This document shows, piece by piece, positions 8,553-22,768 of a stretch of 30,378 bases of DNA. Position 1 is the stretch's first letter. The number at the start of each line of letters is the position of its first letter. The notes beneath the pieces were generated by a model, which saw only the letters and a list, made by a program, of their open reading frames with translations, was not told where the DNA came from and did not search any database. The position numbers and the translations under genes were made by a program. The stretch covers positions 1 to 30,378 of the IMG/VR virus record IMGVR_UViG_3300032241_001969; one strand, 5' to 3'. Source of the stretch: a virus.

Positions 8553-8626
8553 TGGAGCGGGATAGCGGAATCGAACCGCTGACTAAAACTTGGAAGGATC
8601 TCGTTTTACCATTAAACTAATCCCGC
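8553..8626 (-). tRNA. tRNA-Gly(TCC)
   Basis: Acceptor GCGGGAT/ATCCCGC, T-loop TTCGATT, loop CTTCCAA with anticodon TCC, encoded CCA. The anticodon stem has one T-T mismatch. Confidence 0.93.
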
Positions 8627-8634
8627 TTATAAAT

Positions 8635-8708
8635 TGGTTGCGAGACCAGGAATCGAACCTGGACCTGGAGCGTATGAGACTCCTGAGTTACCGTTTCTCT
8701 ATCTCGCT
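8635..8708 (-). tRNA. tRNA-Met(CAT), possibly initiator
   Basis: Loop CTCATAC gives anticodon CAT. Acceptor AGCGAGA against TCTCGCA leaves an A-A mismatch at 1:72, a position unpaired in bacterial initiator tRNAs; the three G-C pairs typical of initiator anticodon stems are not seen. CCA is encoded. One of three CAT tRNAs in the window. Confidence 0.88.
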
Positions 8709-8719
8709 ATGTATATAGG

Positions 8720-8796
8720 TGGTGCGGACGGCGAGACTCGAACTCGCAGATTACAGGGTTTAAGTCTGTTGCCTATACCAATTCGGCTACATCCGC
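8720..8796 (-). tRNA. tRNA-Leu(TAA) with short variable loop
   Basis: Acceptor GCGGATG/CGTCCGC, loop CTTAAAC (anticodon TAA), T-arm GCGAG TTCGAGT CTCGC, CCA encoded. The variable region is five bases (AATCT) instead of the long arm normal for Leu tRNAs. Confidence 0.88.
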
Positions 8797-8817
8797 ATAA
8801 TTAAGTGTATTCTTTAT

Positions 8818-8895
8818 TGGTACCCCTGCTCAGATTCGAACCGAGAGAACTCTTCCTTTTGAGAGAAGTGACTTTACCAATTTGTCAACAGGGGC
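8818..8895 (-). tRNA. tRNA-Leu(CAA) with short variable loop
   Basis: Acceptor GCCCCTG/CAGGGGT, anticodon stem CTTCT/GGAAG with loop CTCAAAA (anticodon CAA), CCA encoded. The variable region is six bases, again without the long arm. Confidence 0.88.
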
Positions 8896-8902
8896 AAAAT
8901 CT

Positions 8903-8978
8903 TGGTGCAACCCACAGGAATCGAACCTGTTTCCATGGTTCTTCAAACCACCGCTATGACCACATCAGCTAGAGTTGC
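8903..8978 (-). tRNA. tRNA-Phe(GAA)
   Basis: Acceptor GCAACTC/GGGTTGC, loop TTGAAGA (anticodon GAA), T-arm ACAGG TTCGATT CCTGT, CCA encoded. Confidence 0.94.
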
Positions 8979-8980
8979 AT

Positions 8981-9054
8981 TGGTGCTCCCACCAGGAAAC
9001 GAGCCTGGTTCTCATCCTTACCAAGGATGTGTAATACCATTATACTATGGGAGC
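8981..9054 (-). tRNA. tRNA-Thr(GGT)
   Basis: Acceptor GCTCCCA/TGGGAGC, anticodon arm CATCC TTGGTAA GGATG, CCA encoded. The T-loop is CTCGTTT rather than the usual TTCRANT. Confidence 0.92.
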
Positions 9055-9102
9055 AGGTGACACACAATTTGTCCTTTTGTACGCCGTGTGTCAAGGCGAA
9101 AT

Positions 9103-9178
9103 TGGTACCTTGTGACGGGTTCGAACCGCCGACATCCTCCTTGTAAGGGAGGCACTCTACCAACTGAGTTAACAAGGC
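9103..9178 (-). tRNA. tRNA-Val(TAC)
   Basis: Acceptor GCCTTGT/ACAAGGT, anticodon arm CCTCC CTTACAA GGAGG, T-loop TTCGAAC, CCA encoded. Confidence 0.95.
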
Positions 9179-9183
9179 ATATA

Positions 9184-9258
9184 TGGGCAGGCGTAAGAGA
9201 ATTGAACTCTTGATATCGGAATCACAATCCGAGGTTTTACCACTAAACTAACACCTGC
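9184..9258 (-). tRNA. tRNA-His(GTG) with encoded G-1
   Basis: Acceptor CAGGTGT/ACGCCTG with an extra 5' G opposite discriminator C73, the His identity pair; loop TTGTGAT (anticodon GTG); T-arm AAGAG TTCAATT CTCTT; CCA encoded. Confidence 0.95.
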
Positions 9259-9264
9259 ATAAAA

Positions 9265-9338
9265 TGGAGCGGGATACCAGAATCGAACTGGTAACTAAAC
9301 CTTGGCAAGGTTTCGTTTTACCACTAAACTAATCCCGC
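9265..9338 (-). tRNA. tRNA-Gly(GCC)
   Basis: Acceptor GCGGGAT/ATCCCGC, anticodon arm AAACC TTGCCAA GGTTT, CCA encoded. Its 5' end overlaps the last codons of the RNase H-like gene, whose stop lies in the D-arm. It resembles the Gly(TCC) gene and is probably its duplicate. Confidence 0.95.
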
Positions 9339-9824
9339 ACTTTCTAAAACTTCTTGTTCTGCCAGAATCCGTTTCAAACGGTCTGCACAGAATGATGCCG
9401 CTGGTGCATCTGGTTTTACCATTGGTGTCATGTTGCAAGTGCCTTTTATATATCCAATTGCCTGTTGGACAACGCAAGAAGAACCATAAATGTCTTCTTT
9501 GTTCAAGTCTAAGTGAACTTCAACATGATGGTCTTCCAGAACGTCCTGGAGACTTTGGAACAATTCTGAAACCTTATATACTTCTGTCATCAGACGCATA
9601 GCAGGTTTAGATTTTTTATGGTCATAATCTAACTCACGTTCGACATAACCAAAGATTTTGCATCCGTGACGGCCATCAATATGAACTACGACAGCCAAAG
9701 CATAATCTGCATACCATACACCATCAACACGAACTCTTTCGGAATCTGCACCAAGATAAACTTTAGTATCTGGTCCTTGTTCTGACAAGAATTCTTTAAC
9801 TTTTTCTATGTCGAAATTTTTCAT
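9324..9824 (-). CDS. RNase H-like protein of the YkuK/DUF458 type
   Basis: A 166-residue protein that I assign to the predicted RNase H-like family around YkuK (DUF458). Conserved acidic positions of an RNase H fold are visible: GADSE at 25-29, HLDLN at 104-108 (Asp106), KPDA at 137-140 and CAD at 146-148. The family usually has the GY(I/V)KG segment also seen here (GYIKG, 124-128). Substrate unknown; RNA processing is a possibility given its place inside a tRNA array. Ribosome site AAGGATTGAT before ATG. The coding end runs into the tRNA-Gly(GCC) gene: the last codons (...AGLV stop) are the tRNA acceptor and D-arm. Both products from one transcript could compete. Confidence 0.75.
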   Translation of the reverse strand: MKNFDIEKVKEFLSEQGPDTKVYLGADSERVRVDGVWYADYALAVVVHIDGRHGCKIFGYVERELDYDHKKSKPAMRLMTEVYKVSELFQSLQDVLEDHHVEVHLDLNKEDIYGSSCVVQQAIGYIKGTCNMTPMVKPDAPAASFCADRLKRILAEQEVLESAGLV

Positions 9825-9838
9825 ATCAATCCTTAAAT

Positions 9839-9913
9839 TGGCATCCCACCGAGGATTCGAACCTCGACTTCAAGGTTTTGGAGACCTGACGACTGCCGTT
9901 ATCTTAGTGAGAT
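9839..9913 (-). tRNA. tRNA-Trp(CCA)
   Basis: Acceptor ATCTCAC/GTGGGAT, loop CTCCAAA (anticodon CCA), T-loop TTCGAAT, discriminator G, encoded CCA end. Confidence 0.93.
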
Positions 9914-9914
9914 A

Positions 9915-10109
9915 TTATTTCTTTACTAATGGATTCTCCACATCATCATAGCGGAGACCCAACTCATCCGAAATTCGAGCCAACTCATCAAGAGCCTTCT
10001 CTTGTTTCGATTTCTTATCCTTACCAAATATTGCATCCCAATTACTAGCGAACTTGTCTTGAGATACACTATATGGTCTAGGACTTGAACCTTTACCACC
10101 ATCACTCAT
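9915..10109 (-). CDS. Small conserved phage protein (MSDGGKGSSPRP type)
   Basis: The 64-residue product begins MSDGGKGSSPRPYSVSQD, followed by FASNWDAIFGK and a charged helical tail ending DDVENPLVKK. I recall proteins with this opening in many myophages but know no function. The ATG at 10109 is chosen because AAAGGAG lies seven bases upstream and because an earlier start would run through tRNA-Arg(ACG). The stop is one base from the 5' end of tRNA-Trp, so the gene is tightly packed between two tRNAs and must lie on a transcript that is cut by tRNA processing. Confidence 0.85.
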   Translation of the reverse strand: MSDGGKGSSPRPYSVSQDKFASNWDAIFGKDKKSKQEKALDELARISDELGLRYDDVENPLVKK

Positions 10110-10125
10110 ATTTAACTCCTTTGTT

Positions 10126-10200
10126 TGGCCGGTCCTGAGAGAATCAAACTCCCACTCCTGCGTTCGTAGCACAGTGTAATATTCATTTTACTAAGGACCG
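10126..10200 (-). tRNA. tRNA-Arg(ACG)
   Basis: Acceptor CGGTCCT/AGGACCG, anticodon arm CTGTG CTACGAA CGCAG (anticodon ACG; A34 would need host deamination to inosine), T-loop TTTGATT, CCA encoded. Confidence 0.92.
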
Positions 10201-10206
10201 ATAAAA

Positions 10207-10274
10207 CATATAGAAACACACTACTCTCTTTATGGTCGAAGCCCCGGACGCTTCTCGTAATGTGTTTTTATATG
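10207..10274 (-). ncRNA. tRNA-spacer hairpin element A
   Basis: An 18-base inverted repeat (10207-10224 and 10257-10274, one A-C mismatch plus a G-T pair) closes a 32-base interior that contains a perfect small hairpin GAAGC GTCCGGG GCTTC. The 5' arm on the minus strand begins within the CCA of tRNA-Met at 10273 and the 3' arm ends six bases before tRNA-Arg. It shares arm sequences CATTA and TAGTGT with elements at 12683-12779 and 12854-12896. Confidence 0.7.
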
Positions 10275-10347
10275 GTGGTGATAGAAGGTAACGATCCTTC
10301 CTATGAGGCTTATGAGACCCCCGCATATCCGTCTATGCTATATCACC
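10273..10347 (-). tRNA. tRNA-Met or Ile2 (CAT)
   Basis: Acceptor GGTGATA/TATCACC, anticodon arm GGGGT CTCATAA GCCTC (anticodon CAT), CCA encoded. T-loop ATCGTTA is unusual. Whether C34 becomes lysidine (Ile) cannot be told. Confidence 0.9.
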
Positions 10348-10352
10348 AGAAT

Positions 10353-10431
10353 TGGCTCCGGACTAGGGAATCGAACCCTACTAGCCATTGATTAACAGTC
10401 AAGCCCATGCACCTTGCTCGGGTTTTCCGGA
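10353..10431 (-). tRNA. tRNA-Asn(GTT)
   Basis: Acceptor TCCGGAA/GTCCGGA (one mismatch at the base of the stem), loop CTGTTAA (anticodon GTT), T-arm TAGGG TTCGATT CCCTA, discriminator G, CCA encoded. Confidence 0.92.
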
Positions 10432-10439
10432 ATAAAATT

Positions 10440-10517
10440 TGGTCTCCCGAGCAGGATTCGAACCTGCGTTATTCTTGCTCCCAAAGCAAGTGCCATGCCG
10501 GACTAGGCGACCGAGAG
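10440..10517 (-). tRNA. tRNA-Pro(TGG)
   Basis: Acceptor CTCTCGG/TCGGGAG, anticodon arm CTTGC TTTGGGA GCAAG (anticodon TGG), T-arm GCAGG TTCGAAT CCTGC, CCA encoded. Its 5' part contains the last codons and stop of the HNH gene. Confidence 0.94.
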
Positions 10518-11075
10518 ATTAAGATTTTCTATGTAATTTTCTATTAATGATAAAACATCATCTTTATATCTACTATGAACATATTGATGATGAGTTGGAC
10601 ATAAAGGTATAAGATTTTCAGGTCTATTATCTTCATGGTCTTCATTCATATGATGAACCGCTACAATTTTATTTTCTTTACATATCACACATTCTTTTTT
10701 GTGATATTTGAAACATATTGTTCTATAATTATTATATGTTTCTGGTTTGTTTCTTAAATGATTGAAATGTGTATTTGAGCAACTATACGAACAAGTTACA
10801 CTTTCAGAAATAAAAAAAGTGTCACAAACGGGACAATTTTTACCTTTTTTTTCAATTACTTTTGGATTACTTTTACAATGGTTTTCGTGTTTTTTAAAAT
10901 TAGTTAAAGAAATACTGATACCACAATATGAACAATCGTATTTTTTATATGCTTTTTCTCTTGCAGCATCTATTTTCGCACTCTGCCTATTTGGATTTGT
11001 TTTACATAATCTTTCGTGGTTACGCAAACTATTATCATTTTTACATTCTCTTTTACAAAAATTGCAGTTTAACAT
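10503..11075 (-). CDS. HNH endonuclease with two C2H2-like fingers (homing type)
   Basis: A 190-residue free-standing endonuclease. Two Cys2-His-Cys finger modules (CNFCKRECKNDNSLRNHERLC-like and CSYCGISISLTNFKKHENHC) are followed by another Cys pair (CPVC) and a C-terminal HNH domain: CVICKE, VHHMNEDHEDNRPENLIPLC and HHQYVHS. Such genes mobilise themselves by cutting near their insertion site. I choose MLNCNFC at 11075 because upstream ATGs at 11105 and 11117 lie in or before the late promoter at 11107-11114. The region upstream of the start can pair with TTTGGTCT at 11118-11125 (see finding). The stop TAG lies in the D-arm of tRNA-Pro. AT-richer than its neighbours, consistent with later arrival. 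Confidence 0.88.
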   Translation of the reverse strand: MLNCNFCKRECKNDNSLRNHERLCKTNPNRQSAKIDAAREKAYKKYDCSYCGISISLTNFKKHENHCKSNPKVIEKKGKNCPVCDTFFISESVTCSYSCSNTHFNHLRNKPETYNNYRTICFKYHKKECVICKENKIVAVHHMNEDHEDNRPENLIPLCPTHHQYVHSRYKDDVLSLIENYIENLNLSVA

Positions 11076-11083
11076 ATTGTTTC

Positions 11084-11125
11084 TTTGGTCTGTGTATTTA
11101 TTCATATATTTATACATAGACCAAA
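11084..11125 (-). promoter_or_regulatory. Late promoter inside an RBS-masking inverted repeat (HNH gene)
   Basis: An 8-base perfect inverted repeat (11084-11091 and 11118-11125, TTTGGTCT/AGACCAAA) flanks a 26-base loop that contains TATAAATA at 11114-11107 on the minus strand. Read-through RNA would pair the segment just upstream of the start codon; RNA from the late promoter would lack the 5' arm. A second weaker AATAAATA lies in the same loop. Confidence 0.7.
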
Positions 11126-11131
11126 TTTAAG

Positions 11132-11197
11132 TGGAGCAGTCATTACGATTCCCACGTAAATGTTAGGTGGACCCCAACACGGTTACTATCCGACTGC
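11132..11197 (-). ncRNA. tRNA-like element without a D-arm, CCA encoded
   Basis: A 66-base element sits in the tRNA array: 7-bp acceptor GCAGTCG/TGACTGC, then T and CCA; a perfect 5-bp T-arm-like hairpin TTACG TGGGAAT CGTAA directly before the acceptor 3' strand; and a central hairpin GTTGG/CTAAC. The 12 bases where the D-arm should be form no stem, and the T-loop lacks TTCRA. The central loop reads GGTCCAC, without T33. Possibly a decayed tRNA or a stable tRNA mimic. Confidence 0.55.
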
Positions 11198-11204
11198 AAA
11201 AAGA

Positions 11205-11278
11205 TGGTGCCCCATGACAGAATCGAACTGCCGTAACCTGACTACAAAACAGGTGTAATGCCATTATACTAATAGGGC
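11205..11278 (-). tRNA. tRNA-Thr(TGT)
   Basis: Acceptor GCCCTAT/ATGGGGC, anticodon stem CCTG/CAGG with loop TTTGTAG (anticodon TGT), T-arm GGCAG TTCGATT CTGTC, CCA encoded. Confidence 0.9.
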
Positions 11279-11295
11279 GTATACTTATATATCTA

Positions 11296-11370
11296 TGGTG
11301 GACCGTGAGAGAATCGAACTCTCAATTTCTGGTTGCAAACCAGATGTGTTCCCATTAGCACTAACAGCCC
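11296..11370 (-). tRNA. tRNA-Ala(TGC)
   Basis: Acceptor GGGCTGT/ACGGTCC, anticodon arm TCTGG TTTGCAA CCAGA (anticodon TGC), T-arm GAGAG TTCGATT CTCTC, CCA encoded. Confidence 0.93.
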
Positions 11371-11378
11371 ATAAAAAT

Positions 11379-11463
11379 TGGTGGAGATGATAGGGATCGA
11401 ACCTATTGTGACTAAAGTCGGAGGATTTACAGTCCCCTGCCATACCATTACGGCGGCATCTCC
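11379..11463 (-). tRNA. tRNA-Tyr(GTA)
   Basis: Acceptor GGAGATG/CATCTCC, anticodon arm GGGGA CTGTAAA TCCTC (anticodon GTA), long variable arm with stem GAC/GTC, CCA encoded. Confidence 0.95.
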
Positions 11464-11656
11464 AAAATTAGGATAAGCTACTTGTTTCCACACAAGCCCT
11501 TAATTGAGCGGTTACTCTGTCCATTCCTTTTATTCTACAGTCTGTGTGCAGAGGAATACTGCCTATCAGATTCTGGATTTCTCCGCTAACGGTCTTCTGC
11601 CACCGGATCTCTCTCGCTAATCAAACGCTACTTTAACGAAAGTAGTAACGGGATTC
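11464..11656 (-). ncRNA. Possible ~190-base structured RNA between tRNA-Ile and tRNA-Tyr
   Basis: No reading frame and no tRNA fits this gap, the longest in the array. On the minus strand it starts with a perfect hairpin CTACTTT CGTT AAAGTAG. CGGT/ACCG follows, flanked by two similar segments (TTAGCGAGAGAGATCC and TTAGCGGAGAAATCC). Then come ATTCC and TCTG, which can pair with downstream GGAAT and CAGA in crossing order (pseudoknot candidate), and a final GCTTGT/ACAAG hairpin. It resembles in position the stable RNAs C and D of the T4 tRNA cluster; no sequence relation is claimed. Confidence 0.5.
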
Positions 11657-11731
11657 TGGTACCGATGGACAATTTCGAAATGTCGGCCTTTCGCTTATCA
11701 AGCGAAAGCTCTTCCTCTGAGCTACATCGGC
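11657..11731 (-). tRNA. tRNA-Ile(GAT)
   Basis: Acceptor GCCGATG/CATCGGT, anticodon arm TTCGC TTGATAA GCGAA (anticodon GAT), T-loop TTCGAAA with one T-stem mismatch, CCA encoded. Confidence 0.92.
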
Positions 11732-11736
11732 AAAAC

Positions 11737-11811
11737 TGGCGGTCTATAGGGGTAACGATCCCCTTCTTTTGGCGTGACAAGCCAACGTGCGTCCATGAAC
11801 ACTTACAGACC
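11737..11811 (-). tRNA. tRNA-Asp(GTC)
   Basis: Acceptor GGTCTGT/ATAGACC, anticodon arm TTGGC TTGTCAC GCCAA (anticodon GTC), discriminator G, CCA encoded. T-loop ATCGTTA is unusual, the same as in tRNA-Met at 10273. Confidence 0.93.
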
Positions 11812-11816
11812 TAAAT

Positions 11817-11899
11817 TGGTGCCCCAACCGAGACTCGAACTCGGATGCCGAAGCAGTGGCTTCTAAGACCACCGTGTCTACCAATTCCACCATCGGGGC
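11817..11899 (-). tRNA. tRNA-Leu(TAG)
   Basis: Acceptor GCCCCGA/TTGGGGC, anticodon arm GTGGT CTTAGAA GCCAC (anticodon TAG), long variable arm (TGCTTCGGCA), CCA encoded. This is the only Leu tRNA here with a class II variable arm. Confidence 0.95.
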
Positions 11900-11908
11900 A
11901 AAAACTTT

Positions 11909-11983
11909 TGGTACGGGTGGAGAATTTCGAAATCTCGACTCTCTGGTTAAAAGCCAGATACTCTGCCTCTGAGTTACACCCGC
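11909..11983 (-). tRNA. tRNA-Lys(TTT)
   Basis: Acceptor GCGGGTG/CACCCGT, loop CTTTTAA (anticodon TTT), T-loop TTCGAAA, CCA encoded. Confidence 0.94.
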
Positions 11984-11988
11984 ATACT

Positions 11989-12113
11989 ACCATTTGTTTT
12001 GCTGACGCACTATTTGCTACGCTCAACGGAATTGGTGGCCACACTACCGTTTATGTACGCAGTTACTCAAGGTTGACGTTTACCTCATGGCTTACATCAG
12101 CAAAACAAATGGT
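11989..12113 (-). ncRNA. tRNA-spacer element B: perfect 17-bp inverted repeat with structured interior
   Basis: ACCATTTGTTTTGCTGA (11989-12005) is repeated in perfect inverted form at 12097-12113 and encloses 91 bases. The interior can form AACGG/CCGTT, AGGT/ACCT and TGTA/TACA stems and contains no reading frame. On the minus strand the 5' arm starts in the CCA of tRNA-Glu and the 3' arm ends five bases before tRNA-Lys, so the element fills the spacer exactly. Confidence 0.7.
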
Positions 12114-12184
12114 ATTCCGTACGAGGATCGAACTCGCCTGCGTAAGTTGAAAGCCTACTGACCTCACCAGAAGTCCAACGGAAT
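12110..12184 (-). tRNA. tRNA-Glu(TTC)
   Basis: Acceptor ATTCCGT/ACGGAAT, anticodon arm GTAGG CTTTCAA CTTAC (anticodon TTC), T-arm GCGAG TTCGATC CTCGT, CCA encoded and shared with the 5' arm of spacer element B. Confidence 0.94.
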
Positions 12185-12199
12185 AAAAATACACTTAAC

Positions 12200-12268
12200 T
12201 TTTTAAAGAACAAGACTGAAGTATATCACACTCCAGAACTTTGTCAACCAGTGTTGTAAAAATACAAC
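12200..12268 (-). promoter_or_regulatory. Sigma-70 promoter with boxA-like leader, internal to the tRNA array
   Basis: Minus strand: -35 TTGACA at 12247-12242, 16-base spacer, -10 TATACT at 12225-12220 with an upstream TGA (extended -10). Right downstream is TTGTTCTTTAAAAA (12213-12200), close to the rrn boxA consensus. Just upstream of the -35 is the palindrome GTTGTATTTTTACAAC (12253-12268). It would transcribe tRNA-Glu and the following genes. Confidence 0.85.
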
Positions 12269-12273
12269 AAACT

Positions 12274-12349
12274 TGGAGTACGTGACAGGAATCGAACCTG
12301 CATAAAACGGATTTGCAATCCGCACCCTAACCGTTCAGGTCACACGTAC
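12274..12349 (-). tRNA. tRNA-Cys(GCA)
   Basis: Acceptor GTACGTG/CACGTAC, anticodon arm GCGGA TTGCAAA TCCGT (anticodon GCA), T-loop TTCGATT, CCA encoded. It is the last tRNA upstream of the internal promoter. Confidence 0.94.
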
Positions 12350-12423
12350 ATGAATATGGCCCCGTTTTTTTGTCATTCTCATTGAGGTGGACGGGAGTTC
12401 CTCAAATCAGTTGCAACACAACT
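12350..12423 (-). ncRNA. Spacer RNA with H-type pseudoknot candidate
   Basis: Minus strand after the CCA of tRNA-Ser(GCT): hairpin AGTTG TGTTG CAACT, then stem TTGAGG/CCTCAA whose loop holds CTCCCGT. Sixteen bases on, after an A-rich run, ACGGGG can pair with CCCGT in that loop. This gives a six-bp stem, a five-bp second stem and an A-rich crossing loop, the layout of compact pseudoknots. No reading frame. Confidence 0.5.
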
Positions 12424-12513
12424 TGGTGGAGAGTCAGGGAGTCGAACCCTGTGACCGTATTACTACGGTCTACGGATTAGCAATCCGCTGCATTACCATC
12501 CTGCCCACTCTCC
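12424..12513 (-). tRNA. tRNA-Ser(GCT)
   Basis: Acceptor GGAGAGT/ACTCTCC, anticodon arm GCGGA TTGCTAA TCCGT (anticodon GCT), long variable arm GACCGTA/TACGGTC, T-arm CAGGG TTCGACT CCCTG, CCA encoded. Confidence 0.95.
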
Positions 12514-12515
12514 AT

Positions 12516-12583
12516 ATCTCAGTTTGGATTCGAACCTTGTTCTAGTATTGTCTATCTGCGCTTCCCACAGTGCTGACTGAGAT
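12516..12583 (-). pseudogene. Degenerate tRNA remnant
   Basis: A perfect 8-bp acceptor-like stem ATCTCAGT/ACTGAGAT closes a 68-base unit that keeps the conserved T-loop core GGTTCGAATCC. The outer T-stem pairs are lost, no clear five-bp anticodon stem forms (only TAG/CTA), and there is no room for CCA because tRNA-Ser(GCT) begins two bases later. Best read as a decayed tRNA gene with its ends preserved. Confidence 0.6.
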
Positions 12584-12586
12584 GAC

Positions 12587-12676
12587 TGGCGGAAACGGTG
12601 AGATTCGAACTCACGGACCCTTTCGGATCGTCTGTTTTCAAGACAGGTGCAATCAACCGGACTCTGCCACGTTTCC
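12587..12676 (-). tRNA. tRNA-Ser(TGA)
   Basis: Acceptor GGAAACG/CGTTTCC, anticodon stem CTGT/ACAG with loop CTTGAAA (anticodon TGA), long variable arm GATCC/GGGTC, T-arm GTGAG TTCGAAT CTCAC, discriminator G, CCA encoded. Confidence 0.95.
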
Positions 12677-12682
12677 AATAAA

Positions 12683-12779
12683 CCATATAGAAATACACTA
12701 CCTTCACCCACTTACGATTGGCGTAACCAGCGGAAGTTAACAACCTGCTCATGTGTTGCTATAATGTATTTTTATATGG
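12683..12779 (-). ncRNA. tRNA-spacer hairpin element C (three-way junction)
   Basis: An 18-base imperfect inverted repeat (12683-12700 and 12762-12779) starts at the CCA of tRNA-Gln and ends six bases before tRNA-Ser(TGA). The interior can form AGCAAC/GTTGTT and a second arm CTTC/GAAG topped by TTACG CCAAT CGTAA. Outer arms nearly match element A at 10207-10274 (CATATAAAAAYACATTA and TAGTGTRTTTCTATATG). Confidence 0.7.
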
Positions 12780-12852
12780 CAGGGGAGATGAGATTCGAAC
12801 TCATGATACTGATTTCAAAGACCAGTGCCTTAGGCCTCTAGGCGACACCCCA
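12777..12852 (-). tRNA. tRNA-Gln(TTG)
   Basis: Acceptor TGGGGTG/CTCCCCT with T-T at 1:72, anticodon arm CTGGT CTTTGAA ATCAG (anticodon TTG), T-arm ATGAG TTCGAAT CTCAT, discriminator G as usual for Gln, CCA encoded. First tRNA after the upstream leader. Confidence 0.93.
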
Positions 12853-12853
12853 A

Positions 12854-12896
12854 CATACTCAAATACACTAAAAAATATCTAATGCGTTTGAGTATG
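12854..12896 (-). ncRNA. Leader hairpin element D, same family as A and C
   Basis: Seventeen-base arms (12854-12870 and 12880-12896; one mismatch, two G-T pairs) with a nine-base loop, ending one base before tRNA-Gln. The inner arm ends CATTA and TAGTGT are those of elements A and C, while the outer part differs on both sides so that pairing is kept (CTC with GAG). This compensatory change supports an RNA structure. Confidence 0.7.
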
Positions 12897-12917
12897 GCCA
12901 CTCCTTGCGGAATGGCC
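12896..12917 (-). ncRNA. Leader hairpin with GNRA tetraloop
   Basis: GGCCATTCC GCAA GGAGTGGCC, nine base pairs (one G-T) capped by GCAA. It lies between the boxA-like motif and element D in the leader of the tRNA transcript. Confidence 0.7.
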
Positions 12918-12935
12918 AAAAAAGAATACACTTAA

Positions 12936-13008
12936 TTTTTAAAGAACAAGGTTGAATTCTAACAGACACGATGGTCTTTGTCAACCGTGTGTTGTTTTTA
13001 CACAACAC
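12936..13008 (-). promoter_or_regulatory. Main tRNA-array promoter, sigma-70 type, with boxA-like leader
   Basis: Minus strand: -35 TTGACA (12984-12979), 17-base spacer, -10 TAGAAT (12961-12956), then TTGTTCTTTAAAAA (12949-12936), matching rrn boxA apart from a few bases. A GTGTTGT/ACAACAC palindrome (about 12989-13008) lies upstream of the -35. It would start the transcript for tRNA-Gln and everything downstream. Confidence 0.85.
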
Positions 13009-13013
13009 CAAAT

Positions 13014-13045
13014 AAAAAAACCTCAGAACTTTCGTTGTGAGGTTT
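13014..13045 (-). terminator. Rho-independent terminator before the tRNA array
   Basis: Stem AAACCTCA/TGAGGTTT followed by a T-rich run on the minus strand. It would end the transcript of the metallopeptidase gene before the main tRNA promoter. Confidence 0.8.
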
Positions 13046-13220
13046 AGTGAAATTTAATTAGATTTTATTCTGTTATGTTCCACCAACCCCAAACCCATGC
13101 GCCCATGACTGATTATCGCTACCAATAAACGGTGTGCGATACTCACATGTTAACAAGGATTTCGATATGAACAACAAAATAATCTCCGAAAAATTTAATC
13201 TATACAACTATATATACAAC
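13046..13220. other. Non-coding stretch, nothing firm recognised
   Basis: Gap between the metallopeptidase stop and the terminator. On the minus strand it holds a 13-residue frame MGAWVWGWWNITE without a ribosome site. On the plus strand, AAGGA precedes an ATG at 13167 that opens a 47-residue frame antisense to the metallopeptidase. Neither is called as a gene. No tRNA or terminator besides the one at 13014-13045. Confidence 0.5.
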
Positions 13221-13739
13221 TTATTCTTTATAAACTGGTTTCTTCCAATTTATTTTTCTCTTTTTAATTGGTTCTTCTGGATTTCTAAAACCAGAAAATA
13301 CTTCCCATAATCTTTCTTGATGAACAAACTTAGTTAATAGACCACTTTCCATACCGTGTGCTTCTATTTCCCAAGGATGGTCCCAATAATCAATATTATC
13401 AGAATCAATTTTTAAATCGTGCCATTTACTTAGTTTCTCATTAGTGTGACCATAAGCAAATTGTTTGATGTGCACCATTTCATGTGCAATTGTTTCTAAA
13501 ATATTTGGAACTCCGATATCTGGATTAACTTCTATTAGAAACTCTCTAGGCATATTCCTAGAATTATAACCTTCAACATATGCGTAACCAAATACATCCA
13601 TATTCTTTTTGAATTTGATTACGATTGAAGTATAATCCTGCATCTGTTTAGTTAATAAACGGTCAGCATAAAACTTTGCAGCCCTATGTACATAAGGAGT
13701 AAAGTTTTTATCGGGACTTCCAACAATCTTAATAGACAT
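13221..13739 (-). CDS. Zinc metallopeptidase-like protein (HExxH)
   Basis: A 172-residue zincin-like protein. HEMVH at 86-90 is the zinc-binding HExxH motif, preceded by the usual ETIA helix; EIEAHGME at 124-131 can give the third ligand. The size and motif spacing recall SprT-like and other small phage metallopeptidases; the substrate is unknown. The start at 13739 (MSIKIVG) is chosen for AAGGAGCATCT just upstream. A consensus sigma-70 promoter lies at 13762-13790 inside the end of the deaminase gene, and a terminator follows at 13014-13045, so it can be transcribed alone and early. Confidence 0.85.
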   Translation of the reverse strand: MSIKIVGSPDKNFTPYVHRAAKFYADRLLTKQMQDYTSIVIKFKKNMDVFGYAYVEGYNSRNMPREFLIEVNPDIGVPNILETIAHEMVHIKQFAYGHTNEKLSKWHDLKIDSDNIDYWDHPWEIEAHGMESGLLTKFVHQERLWEVFSGFRNPEEPIKKRKINWKKPVYKE

Positions 13740-13761
13740 AGATGCTCCTTCAAAAGAAGCC

Positions 13762-13821
13762 ATTATACGCCTATTTAGAGTACTTGTCAACCTCTATTCC
13801 ACACTGTTGTAAAAATACAAC
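13762..13821 (-). promoter_or_regulatory. Consensus sigma-70 promoter with upstream palindrome
   Basis: Minus strand TTGACA (13790-13785), 17 bases, TATAAT (13767-13762): a perfect -35/-10 pair within the last codons of the deaminase gene. GTTGTATTTTTACAAC lies at about 13806-13821, the same palindrome as next to the internal tRNA promoter. It drives the metallopeptidase gene. Confidence 0.88.
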
Positions 13822-14262
13822 ACCATGGTTGGTTTTATAATCGTTCAAATAGAAAACCTTACGGATTCCTGCTGTAAATATTTGTTTTGCACATTCAATA
13901 CATGGAGAATGTGTCAGGAACATAACTGAACCATCTCCAGATTCACTCGACTTGGCCAGTTTAGCAATGGCATTTGCCTCGGCATGAATGACTTCGGATT
14001 TGGTTTTGGTTTTAAACCAGTTACCATTTTCAGATTGTGTATAACCTAAAGATACCATATCGGTACCTATTACTTCCTCATTCAATACAAATATTGTGTT
14101 TTCACATTCATTAGTCCAACCAGGTGGCATACCATTATAACCAATGGAAATGATTCTATCATCTTTGACAATGATAGAACCAACCTGAAGACGTTTTGCC
14201 GAACTTAATTGTGCAGTCCGTTCAGCAATATCCATGAAATAATCAATAAACTTCTGCTTCAT
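13771..14262 (-). CDS. cd: dCMP deaminase
   Basis: Zinc-dependent deaminase that turns dCMP into dUMP, feeding dTMP synthesis for phage DNA; 163 residues. The active site is visible: HAEAN at 93-97 (His93 zinc ligand, Glu95 proton shuttle) and PCIEC at 120-124 (Cys121 and Cys124 zinc ligands). VGSIIVKDDRIISIGYNGMP at 27-46 is typical of the family. The ATG lies six bases after the CCA of tRNA-Met (14269) with no recognisable ribosome site, so maturation of that tRNA would leave a nearly leaderless mRNA. Its last codons overlap the promoter of the metallopeptidase gene. Confidence 0.93.
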   Translation of the reverse strand: MKQKFIDYFMDIAERTAQLSSAKRLQVGSIIVKDDRIISIGYNGMPPGWTNECENTIFVLNEEVIGTDMVSLGYTQSENGNWFKTKTKSEVIHAEANAIAKLAKSSESGDGSVMFLTHSPCIECAKQIFTAGIRKVFYLNDYKTNHGVVFLQQCGIEVDKYSK

Positions 14263-14268
14263 AATATA

Positions 14269-14343
14269 TGGTGCGACCAGTAGGATTCGAACCTACCCCG
14301 TAAGAATTATGAGTTCTTGGCACTACCTCTATGCTATAGTCGC
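14269..14343 (-). tRNA. tRNA-Met (CAT)
   Basis: Acceptor GCGACTA/TGGTCGC, anticodon arm AAGAA CTCATAA TTCTT (anticodon CAT), T-arm GTAGG TTCGAAT CCTAC, CCA encoded. Third CAT tRNA; elongator Met or lysidine-type Ile. Confidence 0.92.
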
Positions 14344-14348
14344 TAATT

Positions 14349-14423
14349 TGGTCCGGCGTACAGGAATCGAACCCATATTCTTGGTGTAGAAGACCAGTGT
14401 ATTCTCCATTATACGAACGCCAG
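14349..14423 (-). tRNA. tRNA-Arg(TCT)
   Basis: Acceptor CTGGCGT/ACGCCGG, loop CTTCTAC (anticodon TCT), T-loop TTCGATT, CCA encoded. It starts five bases after the stop of the gene at 14429. Confidence 0.92.
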
Positions 14424-21505: not shown

Positions 21506-22768
21506 TTATCTACCAACTTGTGGCAGATATTTTGCCTTGGTTTCTTCCCAAGACAAATAGATTAGGTCATCATAGAATAGTGATTCATATGATACCTGAT
21601 TTTTCTTTTGTAGTTGCCGAATTCTAGGTTTGGCATACTTACTTTTCCAAATGTTGGTGAGTGCTTCCTCGGAAGTATCAAAAGATTTAACCAAAGCTTT
21701 GTCACCAATTTCTTTGCGGAGAAATTCGTTTGTGTTGTTATACAAAGGAGAGAAATAAATTCCACGTTGGTGTTCTGTGCGAATCAACTCCTTTGGAATC
21801 TTTAACTTACCATAAGCAAAGTTCAACGAACGATTCTTGTGGTCACGTTTCAGTGGAAGTCCTTGTGTGTTGGTTGCATCCCACCATTCAAAGTATTTTC
21901 TTGTGTGGTTTTCTTTGATCCACTTGTAGACCATGTTAGCAGTAGAACGCTTAGGCTCAAAAGCAACAGACCCACTAGAGAATCCCATTTTCTGCCAATG
22001 TTCCAGACCATCGTACTGAGAAAGCCCGTTGGCTTTGGTCTTTCCATAGAGTGACGTTGTAGTAACGCCAACAAGAGTGTCTCCATAACGAACTTTCCAA
22101 TCTTTTTGAACTGTGTCAGCAAGACATAACAATGCCAACAACTTACCACCCATGTAATTGTAACCAAGTGGTTGCAACGGCACAATCGTAGAACCAATTG
22201 CTGTATGGTTAATCATACTTTGTTGTGTCTTAACATCTCTAGACCAACCAATTGCATTATCACGAGGTGTCAAATCCAAGAAATCGGATGAAATACAAAT
22301 AACACCAAGATACTTGCCGGAACGACCATCAACAACGGTGTAAAATAGATTACGACCAATGTTAGAGTTGTTCTTCATGGTAGATGAGAATGTGCGAATG
22401 GCATTCCATGTTTCTGCCAATTCACCATTATGAAGTTGCATAATGGGTTCTAACTTTTCATAGTCATCAGGAGAACTAGGAACCCAAAAGTTACTCTTGA
22501 CTTTTTGAATCAATTTCTCTTGTTCTTTGTTAACCATATGAACTTCTTCGCCCCACAATGTGGAGACTTCTTTCACAGGATAACGTTCTTTCACTTCACA
22601 CCATTTCTGGTATAAAGTATATTCTCTAACATCCATTGAGGATGCATAAGTTAAGTCTTCAATAAGTGTTTTCTTTAGTTGTTCTTCATCAATGTGTTCG
22701 TGACTAGGATTGATTTCCTGCCACGAAGCCCACTGTTTCTCAACGAACTCTAGCGGAGTTTTTGCCAT
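21506..22768 (-). CDS. DruA-like protein (DUF4338 type)
   Basis: A 420-residue protein whose centre looks like DUF4338, the family of DruA from the Druantia anti-phage system: YLGVICISSDFLDLTPRDNAIGW (about 153-175), a conserved IVPLQPLGYNYMGGKLLALL stretch (195-214) and DWKVRYGDTLVGVTTTSLYGKT (223-244), then HWQKMGF. The assignment is from memory of the motif order. The biochemical role of DruA is not settled; in a phage it might modify or cut nucleic acid or counter a host system. The N-terminal 100 residues are helical and specific. It overlaps the deformylase gene by 29 bases and has no obvious ribosome site. Confidence 0.65.
   Translation of the reverse strand: MAKTPLEFVEKQWASWQEINPSHEHIDEEQLKKTLIEDLTYASSMDVREYTLYQKWCEVKERYPVKEVSTLWGEEVHMVNKEQEKLIQKVKSNFWVPSSPDDYEKLEPIMQLHNGELAETWNAIRTFSSTMKNNSNIGRNLFYTVVDGRSGKYLGVICISSDFLDLTPRDNAIGWSRDVKTQQSMINHTAIGSTIVPLQPLGYNYMGGKLLALLCLADTVQKDWKVRYGDTLVGVTTTSLYGKTKANGLSQYDGLEHWQKMGFSSGSVAFEPKRSTANMVYKWIKENHTRKYFEWWDATNTQGLPLKRDHKNRSLNFAYGKLKIPKELIRTEHQRGIYFSPLYNNTNEFLRKEIGDKALVKSFDTSEEALTNIWKSKYAKPRIRQLQKKNQVSYESLFYDDLIYLSWEETKAKYLPQVGR

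Follow-up and report, generated by a model that had tools for sequence, protein, structure and literature searches.

The window analyzed here is the whole 30,378-nucleotide (nt) stretch of IMG/VR virus record IMGVR_UViG_3300032241_001969 (positions 1 to 30,378), a 30-kb piece of a T4-like myovirus. The DNA polymerase encoded in it shares ~50% identity with the polymerases of cyanophages, and its other proteins include SbcC-, gp44-, gp45-, and gp19-like ones; psbA, which would be a clue to the host, is absent. The minus strand carries an array (8553 to 14423) of 27 tRNAs recognized by ARAGORN and a tRNA-Asn that this program misses. Within the array, 7 nt past the tRNA-Thr and placed like the other tRNAs there, lies a 66-nt element (11132 to 11197, minus strand), referred to below as the mini. 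It acts like part of a tRNA-Gly but lacks features that define a canonical tRNA.

Read on the minus strand from 11197 to 11132, the mini, with its encoded CCA included, consists of the 5′ strand of the acceptor stem, GCAGTCG (11191 to 11197); a linker, GATAGTAACC (11181 to 11190), that replaces the D-arm and contains a conserved AAC; a central hairpin with an anticodon-like loop, GTGTTGG-GGTCCAC-CTAACAT (11160 to 11180); a T-arm, TTACG-TGGGAAT-CGTAA (11143 to 11159); the 3′ strand of the acceptor stem, TGACTGC (11136 to 11142); and the discriminator U73 followed by CCA (11132 to 11135). Anticodon positions 34 to 36 (11169 to 11171) read UCC, for glycine. The acceptor stem of 7 base pairs (bp), in which pair 7 is G-U, the 5-bp T-stem with a 7-nt loop, and the CCA end are shared with canonical tRNAs. 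The 7-bp acceptor, the T-arm hairpin, and the CCA, together with the lack of TTC in the T-loop and of T33 (the base there is G33), were correctly recognized in a first-pass annotation of the sequence. Its two other structural claims, a central hairpin and a missing D-arm, hold with one refinement each. The hairpin is present but longer than an anticodon arm: its stem comprises 7 bp, or 8 bp if it is closed by a GUCCA pentaloop, with no variable loop remaining, so this is not a standard anticodon arm. A GG-containing D-loop is lacking, as claimed, although the window copy is able to pair a 2-bp GG/CC vestige and mini D-stems of 3 to 4 bp are seen in related subtypes. The mini is not called by ARAGORN and scores below the gathering cutoff of the Rfam tRNA model (RF00005). 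Folded alone, the window copy is modestly better than its shuffles (z, −2.2); what sets the element apart from chance is its conservation across 31 homologs, not the lone fold.

Loci of related phages were retrieved through their dCMP deaminase and phrog_11311 proteins, and blastn searches of these loci yielded ~20 homologs. A covariance model brought in divergent relatives, and additional scans led to eight provisional subtypes. The resulting RNA family is found in ~90 IMG/VR contigs of T4-like phages. In pattern scans of IMG/VR, type I, to which the window copy belongs, is found in 47 to 50 contigs (2 of the 50 matches look like chance ones), and types II and IV are found in 21 contigs each. 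Among 31 distinct type I sequences, 98.3% of the base-pair cells in the 7-bp acceptor stem, 7-bp central stem, and 5-bp T-stem are paired, compared to 32 to 54% in controls with slid partner columns. Changes on both sides are seen in 13 of the 19 pairs, with 94 double-change cells observed versus 23.5 in shuffles. Unguided RNAalifold predicts an identical structure with the addition of pair 25-31, which gives the 8-bp stem and GUCCA pentaloop. Judging from this covariation, the structure of the mini is under selection. The first-pass annotation had argued against simple decay and proposed a search of relatives for conservation of the paired parts; both points are borne out. Its refuting condition, a normal tRNA at the homologous positions, was examined with an outcome against decay, the homologs being mini forms with compensatory changes. 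In the close relative L009, the mini is identical in 65 of 66 positions, compared to 68 of 74 for the adjacent tRNA-Thr and 65 of 75 for the adjacent tRNA-Ala.

Subtype I is D-armless and has the loop GGUCCAC. Subtype II contains a mini D-stem (GTT-ATAG-AAC) and the loop UGUCCAA, the loops of subtypes III and IV are AUGCCCU and GUACCCC, respectively, and subtype V combines the loop AUUCCCU with a 4-bp D-stem. The loop UGCCCAA is also found; subtypes VI and VII are represented by one sequence each and subtype VIII by the copy from G025. Two loci, L156 and L182, each encode two different subtypes of the mini, and the L182 pair differs at base 34 (UCC and GCC). When mini tRNAs were scanned for strictly but regardless of identity, this class was the only one to turn up next to tRNA arrays, with 35 distinct sequences at 71 loci. 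A blastn search of 50,697 cultured-phage records revealed no true homolog, the matches being to tRNA-Thr or short chance ones; a scan of GTDB genomes with the type I pattern gave no match; Rfam contains no homolog of the mini; and no report of such phage RNAs was found in the open-licence literature.

The glycine identity of bacterial tRNAs is specified by G1-C72, C2-G71, U73, C35, and C36 (PMC9976931). All 61 distinct members of the mini family retain G1-C72, C2-G71, G4-C69, U73, and CCA, and their loops carry C35-C36. The register of the loop is ambiguous in a few sequences, for which the automatic finder chose another one, and in the G025 copy, which has a 6-nt loop; in these cases, the two bases are placed by homology or with some doubt. 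Thus, the mini possesses the complete bacterial glycine identity set. Base 34 can be U, A, G, or C (UCC, ACC, GCC, and CCC), and base 33 varies as well. Fixed C35-C36 next to drifting bases 34 and 33 would be expected if the loop is read by a synthetase and not by a codon. Because conserved patterns had served in part to collect the members, bases within these patterns are biased toward invariance, a bias that was tested by freeing them. With the anticodon and base 73 freed, UCC is found in 47 of 48 matches and ACC in the remaining one; with the acceptor freed, the scan gained only chance matches and one copy at a contig end. Among the tRNAs of these arrays, all 227 canonical tRNA-Gly sequences show the G1-C72/C2-G71/U73 signature, which otherwise occurs only in 1 tRNA-Arg and 3 tRNA-Cys.

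To judge from its bases, the mini does not resemble a tRNA used for decoding. Neither a variable loop nor a D-loop is found in the window type, in which base 33 is G. G33 and a possible G32-C38 pair are seen in 31 of 31 aligned type I members, and U33 is usually lost family-wide. U33 and a 5-bp anticodon stem, the decoding features of D-armless mitochondrial-type tRNAs, are both missing from type I. The T-loop (TGGGAAT and variants) is devoid of the bases that dock on G18G19, and the elbow formed by the D-arm and the G18G19-TTC contact is absent. Pair 51-63 is A-U in the window copy; 29 of 31 minis have either A-U or U-A there, versus 1 of 79 canonical tRNA-Gly from the same phages. The non-proteinogenic tRNA-Gly of Staphylococcus aureus is likewise marked by the loss of G18G19 and by A51-U63 (PMC4052509). 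Canonical tRNA-Gly(UCC) or tRNA-Gly(GCC) is encoded in nearly all arrays, often next to the mini. The window array contains both, at 8553 to 8626 and 9265 to 9338 (minus strand), respectively, so the mini is an addition to tRNA-Gly(UCC), and its role as a substitute for a missing tRNA-Gly(UCC) is ruled out.

Several type II copies are found outside the arrays, on contigs with few or no tRNAs. In L251, L253, L254, and L260, the mini is preceded either by a box similar to TATATAAAG/TATAAATG, at a distance of 10 to 14 nt, or by an AT-rich element akin to it (the boxes in L253 and L254 are T4-late-like) and is followed, immediately past the CCA, by an intrinsic terminator. L253 contains two tandem minis, the second with the anticodon CCC. 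In G025, a TTGACA-17-TATAAT promoter that matches the consensus in 12 of 12 positions ends ~10 nt ahead of the mini. These predicted signals indicate that the mini can be an autonomous gene with its own promoter and/or terminator. Such upkeep would not be expected of a decayed tRNA.

These features suggest that the mini is a functional miniature glycine-accepting tRNA that works outside ordinary decoding, a reading for which we see belief and doubt in about equal balance. Its transcription would take place as part of the tRNA array or, in certain relatives, start at a promoter of its own. A stack of 12 bp made up of the acceptor and T-stems, together with the encoded CCA, might then allow trimming by RNase P and tRNA maturation enzymes. 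Host glycyl-tRNA synthetase (GlyRS) would read G1-C72, C2-G71, U73, C35, and C36 and load glycine. The lack of a D-loop/T-loop elbow, the replacement of U33 by G33, and the weak T-stem pairs for EF-Tu would keep the glycyl-RNA from the ribosome, leaving its glycine to be spent elsewhere. The single most likely use would be as a glycyl donor for a transferase. The first-pass proposal of a tRNA mimic or a substrate of CCA-dependent enzymes fits this scheme in outline; that annotation had not recognized the complete glycine identity set, the drift of base 34 next to fixed C35-C36, the broader family and its subtypes, or the standalone genes.

The main rival to the glycine-donor reading is a decoy or sponge; a decoy for tRNA nucleases had also been suggested in the first-pass annotation. 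The mini might be bait for defense enzymes that attack the acceptor end of tRNA-Gly, or it might tie up the host GlyRS, in either case sparing canonical tRNA-Gly. We regard this as being on the unlikely side, if well worth considering. The proposed targets are toxSAS (FaRel2), the GNAT toxins that acetylate Gly-tRNA (TacT/AtaT2), and tRNA nucleases. FaRel2 depends on G1-C72, C2-G71, G4-C69, and Pu5-Py68 (PMC11559606). The first three of these four determinants are invariant in the minis, with pair 3 free; TacT reads U73 plus G71 (PMC9976931); phage tRNAs are known as counterdefenses (PMC10264068, PMC11555353); and minis adjoin canonical tRNA-Gly in the arrays. However, the fourth FaRel2 determinant is not kept, pair 5 of the minis being mostly U-A, and the other three are also found on canonical tRNA-Gly and may simply be inherited. 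A decoy for enzymes that act on the uncharged acceptor end would, furthermore, have no need for C35-C36, which is kept in all subtypes. It is doubtful that the mini is a stripped-down tRNA-Gly that still decodes, as a spare isoacceptor evading nucleases that recognize either the elbow or an ordinary anticodon loop. Mitochondrial tRNAs without a D-arm are used in decoding, and subtypes III and V retain U33, a 7-nt loop (AUGCCCU and AUUCCCU), and a 3- to 4-bp mini D-arm, but bacterial ribosomes touch the tRNA elbow. In each of the 31 aligned members, the window subtype combines G33 with the G32-C38 pair, the phages encode canonical tRNA-Gly(UCC) too, base 34 can be A or C, an unusual choice for these boxes in bacteria, and the T-stem pairs are weak for EF-Tu; all of this speaks against decoding. 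PMC9976931 mentions one mitochondrial tRNA that lacks the D-arm.

The invariance of the loop GGGUCCACC in nearly all type I members goes, as far as can be judged from the alignment, beyond the known needs of the glycine synthetase and counts against the glycine-donor reading. It would fit a conserved small RNA with some other job, such as protein binding or antisense pairing via this loop, that borrows tRNA processing for its ends. We nevertheless find such an RNA very unlikely, since the other subtypes swap the loop (GUACCCC, AUGCCCU, UGUCCAA, and UGCCCAA) and never C35-C36 or the acceptor identity, a pattern that neither antisense pairing nor loop binding predicts. Finally, decay of a tRNA gene, or a fold that arose by chance, would account for the blindness of ARAGORN and Rfam to the mini and for the missing D-arm, TTC, and U33, but it is scarcely credible for three helices with compensatory changes that have homologs in ~90 contigs and include standalone copies with a promoter or terminator; a decayed tRNA is ruled out by the covariation and by an identity in L009 that exceeds that of the adjacent tRNAs.

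A candidate for the transferase in the glycine-donor reading is DruA/DUF4338 (PF14236), which is encoded immediately 5′ of the standalone minis and has an ortholog in the window (21506 to 22768, minus strand). One phage DruA homolog is annotated as “methylcarbamoylase mom.” Mom enzymes are GNATs that have been proposed to use glycyl-CoA (PMC7824862). In records longer than 100 kb, PF14236 is found in 11 of 11 with the mini and in none of the 4 fully scanned ones without it. G025 encodes DruA but no array mini; a mini was predicted from its DruA gene, and a diverged copy was then found beside that gene. The glycylated mini might thus be a donor substrate of DruA/DUF4338, possibly a Mom-like GNAT, with the glycyl group moved to phage DNA or another target, although we consider this specific assignment improbable. 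Several observations weigh against it. The mini-bearing phages fit a single clade on the DNA polymerase tree, so kinship confounds the DruA-mini link; DruA occurs without the mini in Pelagibacter phages Mosig and HTVC008M; and the partial contigs G007, G009, G011, and G031 are discordant, three having the mini without DruA and one having DruA without the mini. For these reasons, the link is a lead, not a result. FemAB (PF02388) and Acetyltransf_6 (PF13480) are absent from the 15 to 17 phage records searched, and a search for cyclodipeptide synthase gave no match, with a control that matched nowhere either. A structure model of DruA reached a predicted local distance difference test (pLDDT) score of 33 from a single sequence and 66.7 from seven sequences. 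Compared to PDB, the seven-sequence model retrieved mostly GNAT folds, none with an E value below 0.05. If correct, the DruA reading would define a tRNA-dependent, non-ribosomal modification pathway in a virus.

In the two Pelagibacter phages, the syntenic intergenic regions near DUF4338 and before a peptidase gene (4117 to 4252 in L262, HTVC008M, and 4697 to 4831 in L261, Mosig EXVC030M) share the hairpin GCTGTGCGAnnTGACGCA. This hairpin differs from the mini and has no CCA; it possibly belongs to an unannotated RNA.

The surroundings of the mini in the array contain several other unusual features. The tRNA-Asn(GTT) at 10353 to 10431 (minus strand), ~79 nt long with an odd large D region, is the one not called by ARAGORN, and this form recurs in many relatives; as it is a normal tRNA-Asn, a cryptic tRNA-Asn is ruled out as an explanation of the mini. 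An HNH endonuclease gene (10503 to 11117, minus strand) lies between the mini and tRNA-Pro, which its 3′ end overlaps. It is missing there in L009 and L086, which have tRNA-Pro directly after the mini; this rules out the mini being part of the HNH gene and indicates that the latter was inserted beside it. In tRNA-Met and tRNA-Asp (10273 to 10347 and 11737 to 11811, minus strand), the T-loop is ATCGTTA instead of TTCRANY, a variant seen in several tRNA species of related arrays. Inter-tRNA repeat modules at 10201 to 10272 and 12677 to 12776 (minus strand) have conserved ends, TATAAAAAnACATTA...TAGTGTnTTTCTATATGG, that can pair as a long stem, and a variable core; they are not tRNAs, and three copies of the same modules are found in L083 around positions 650 to 1250. 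A tRNA-like sequence at 12514 to 12586 (minus strand) has the ends ATCTCAGT/ACTGAGAT and the T-loop motif TTCGAAT but unclear arms and no CCA; it is possibly a decayed tRNA. The array gaps at 11464 to 11656 and 11984 to 12109 (minus strand) are long and structured, the second being closed by the inverted repeat TTTGTTTTGCTGA...TCAGCAAAACAAA.

If the mini is charged, it would, going by the present searches, be the first phage-encoded tRNA family that selection apparently maintains for aminoacylation rather than decoding. It would also be a non-mitochondrial tRNA that is D-armless or nearly so, of which the open-licence literature searched contains no earlier report. It would offer a short natural RNA for testing the needs of GlyRS, RNase P, EF-Tu, and the ribosome, and it hints at a new use of glycyl-tRNA in phage infection, either as a donor for a modification enzyme or as a decoy for immunity that targets tRNA-Gly. 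Its existence also shows that standard tRNA finders miss a class of RNAs within phage arrays.

Partial parallels to the mini are found in several known systems. Plant virus 3′ tRNA-like structures mimic part of a tRNA to use the aminoacylation machinery, as proposed for the mini, but they form the 3′ ends of genomic RNAs and are not free small RNAs. The D-armless mitochondrial tRNAs, such as tRNA-Ser(GCU), similarly have a short linker instead of the D-arm and keep the acceptor and T-arm. However, tRNA-Ser(GCU) is specific for serine and decodes, whereas the mini is encoded by a bacterial virus, has glycine identity, has usually lost U33, and contains a central stem of 7 to 8 bp with no variable loop. 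With the canonical tRNAs of phage arrays, which serve in antidefense or codon supply, the minis share the arrays, the strand, the 5- to 8-nt spacers, and the encoded CCA, but they are invisible to tRNA models, lack the elbow, U33, and TTC, and in some cases stand alone with their own promoter or terminator. The non-proteinogenic tRNA-Gly of S. aureus, the donors for peptidoglycan bridges, resemble the minis in keeping glycine identity, in losing G18G19, in having the weak EF-Tu pair A51-U63, and in being extra to canonical tRNA-Gly genes. These, however, are full-length tRNAs, D-arm included, of a bacterium whose Fem enzyme is known, whereas the minis are phage-encoded RNAs of 60 to 67 nt plus CCA, in which the D-arm is absent or reduced to 2 to 4 bp.
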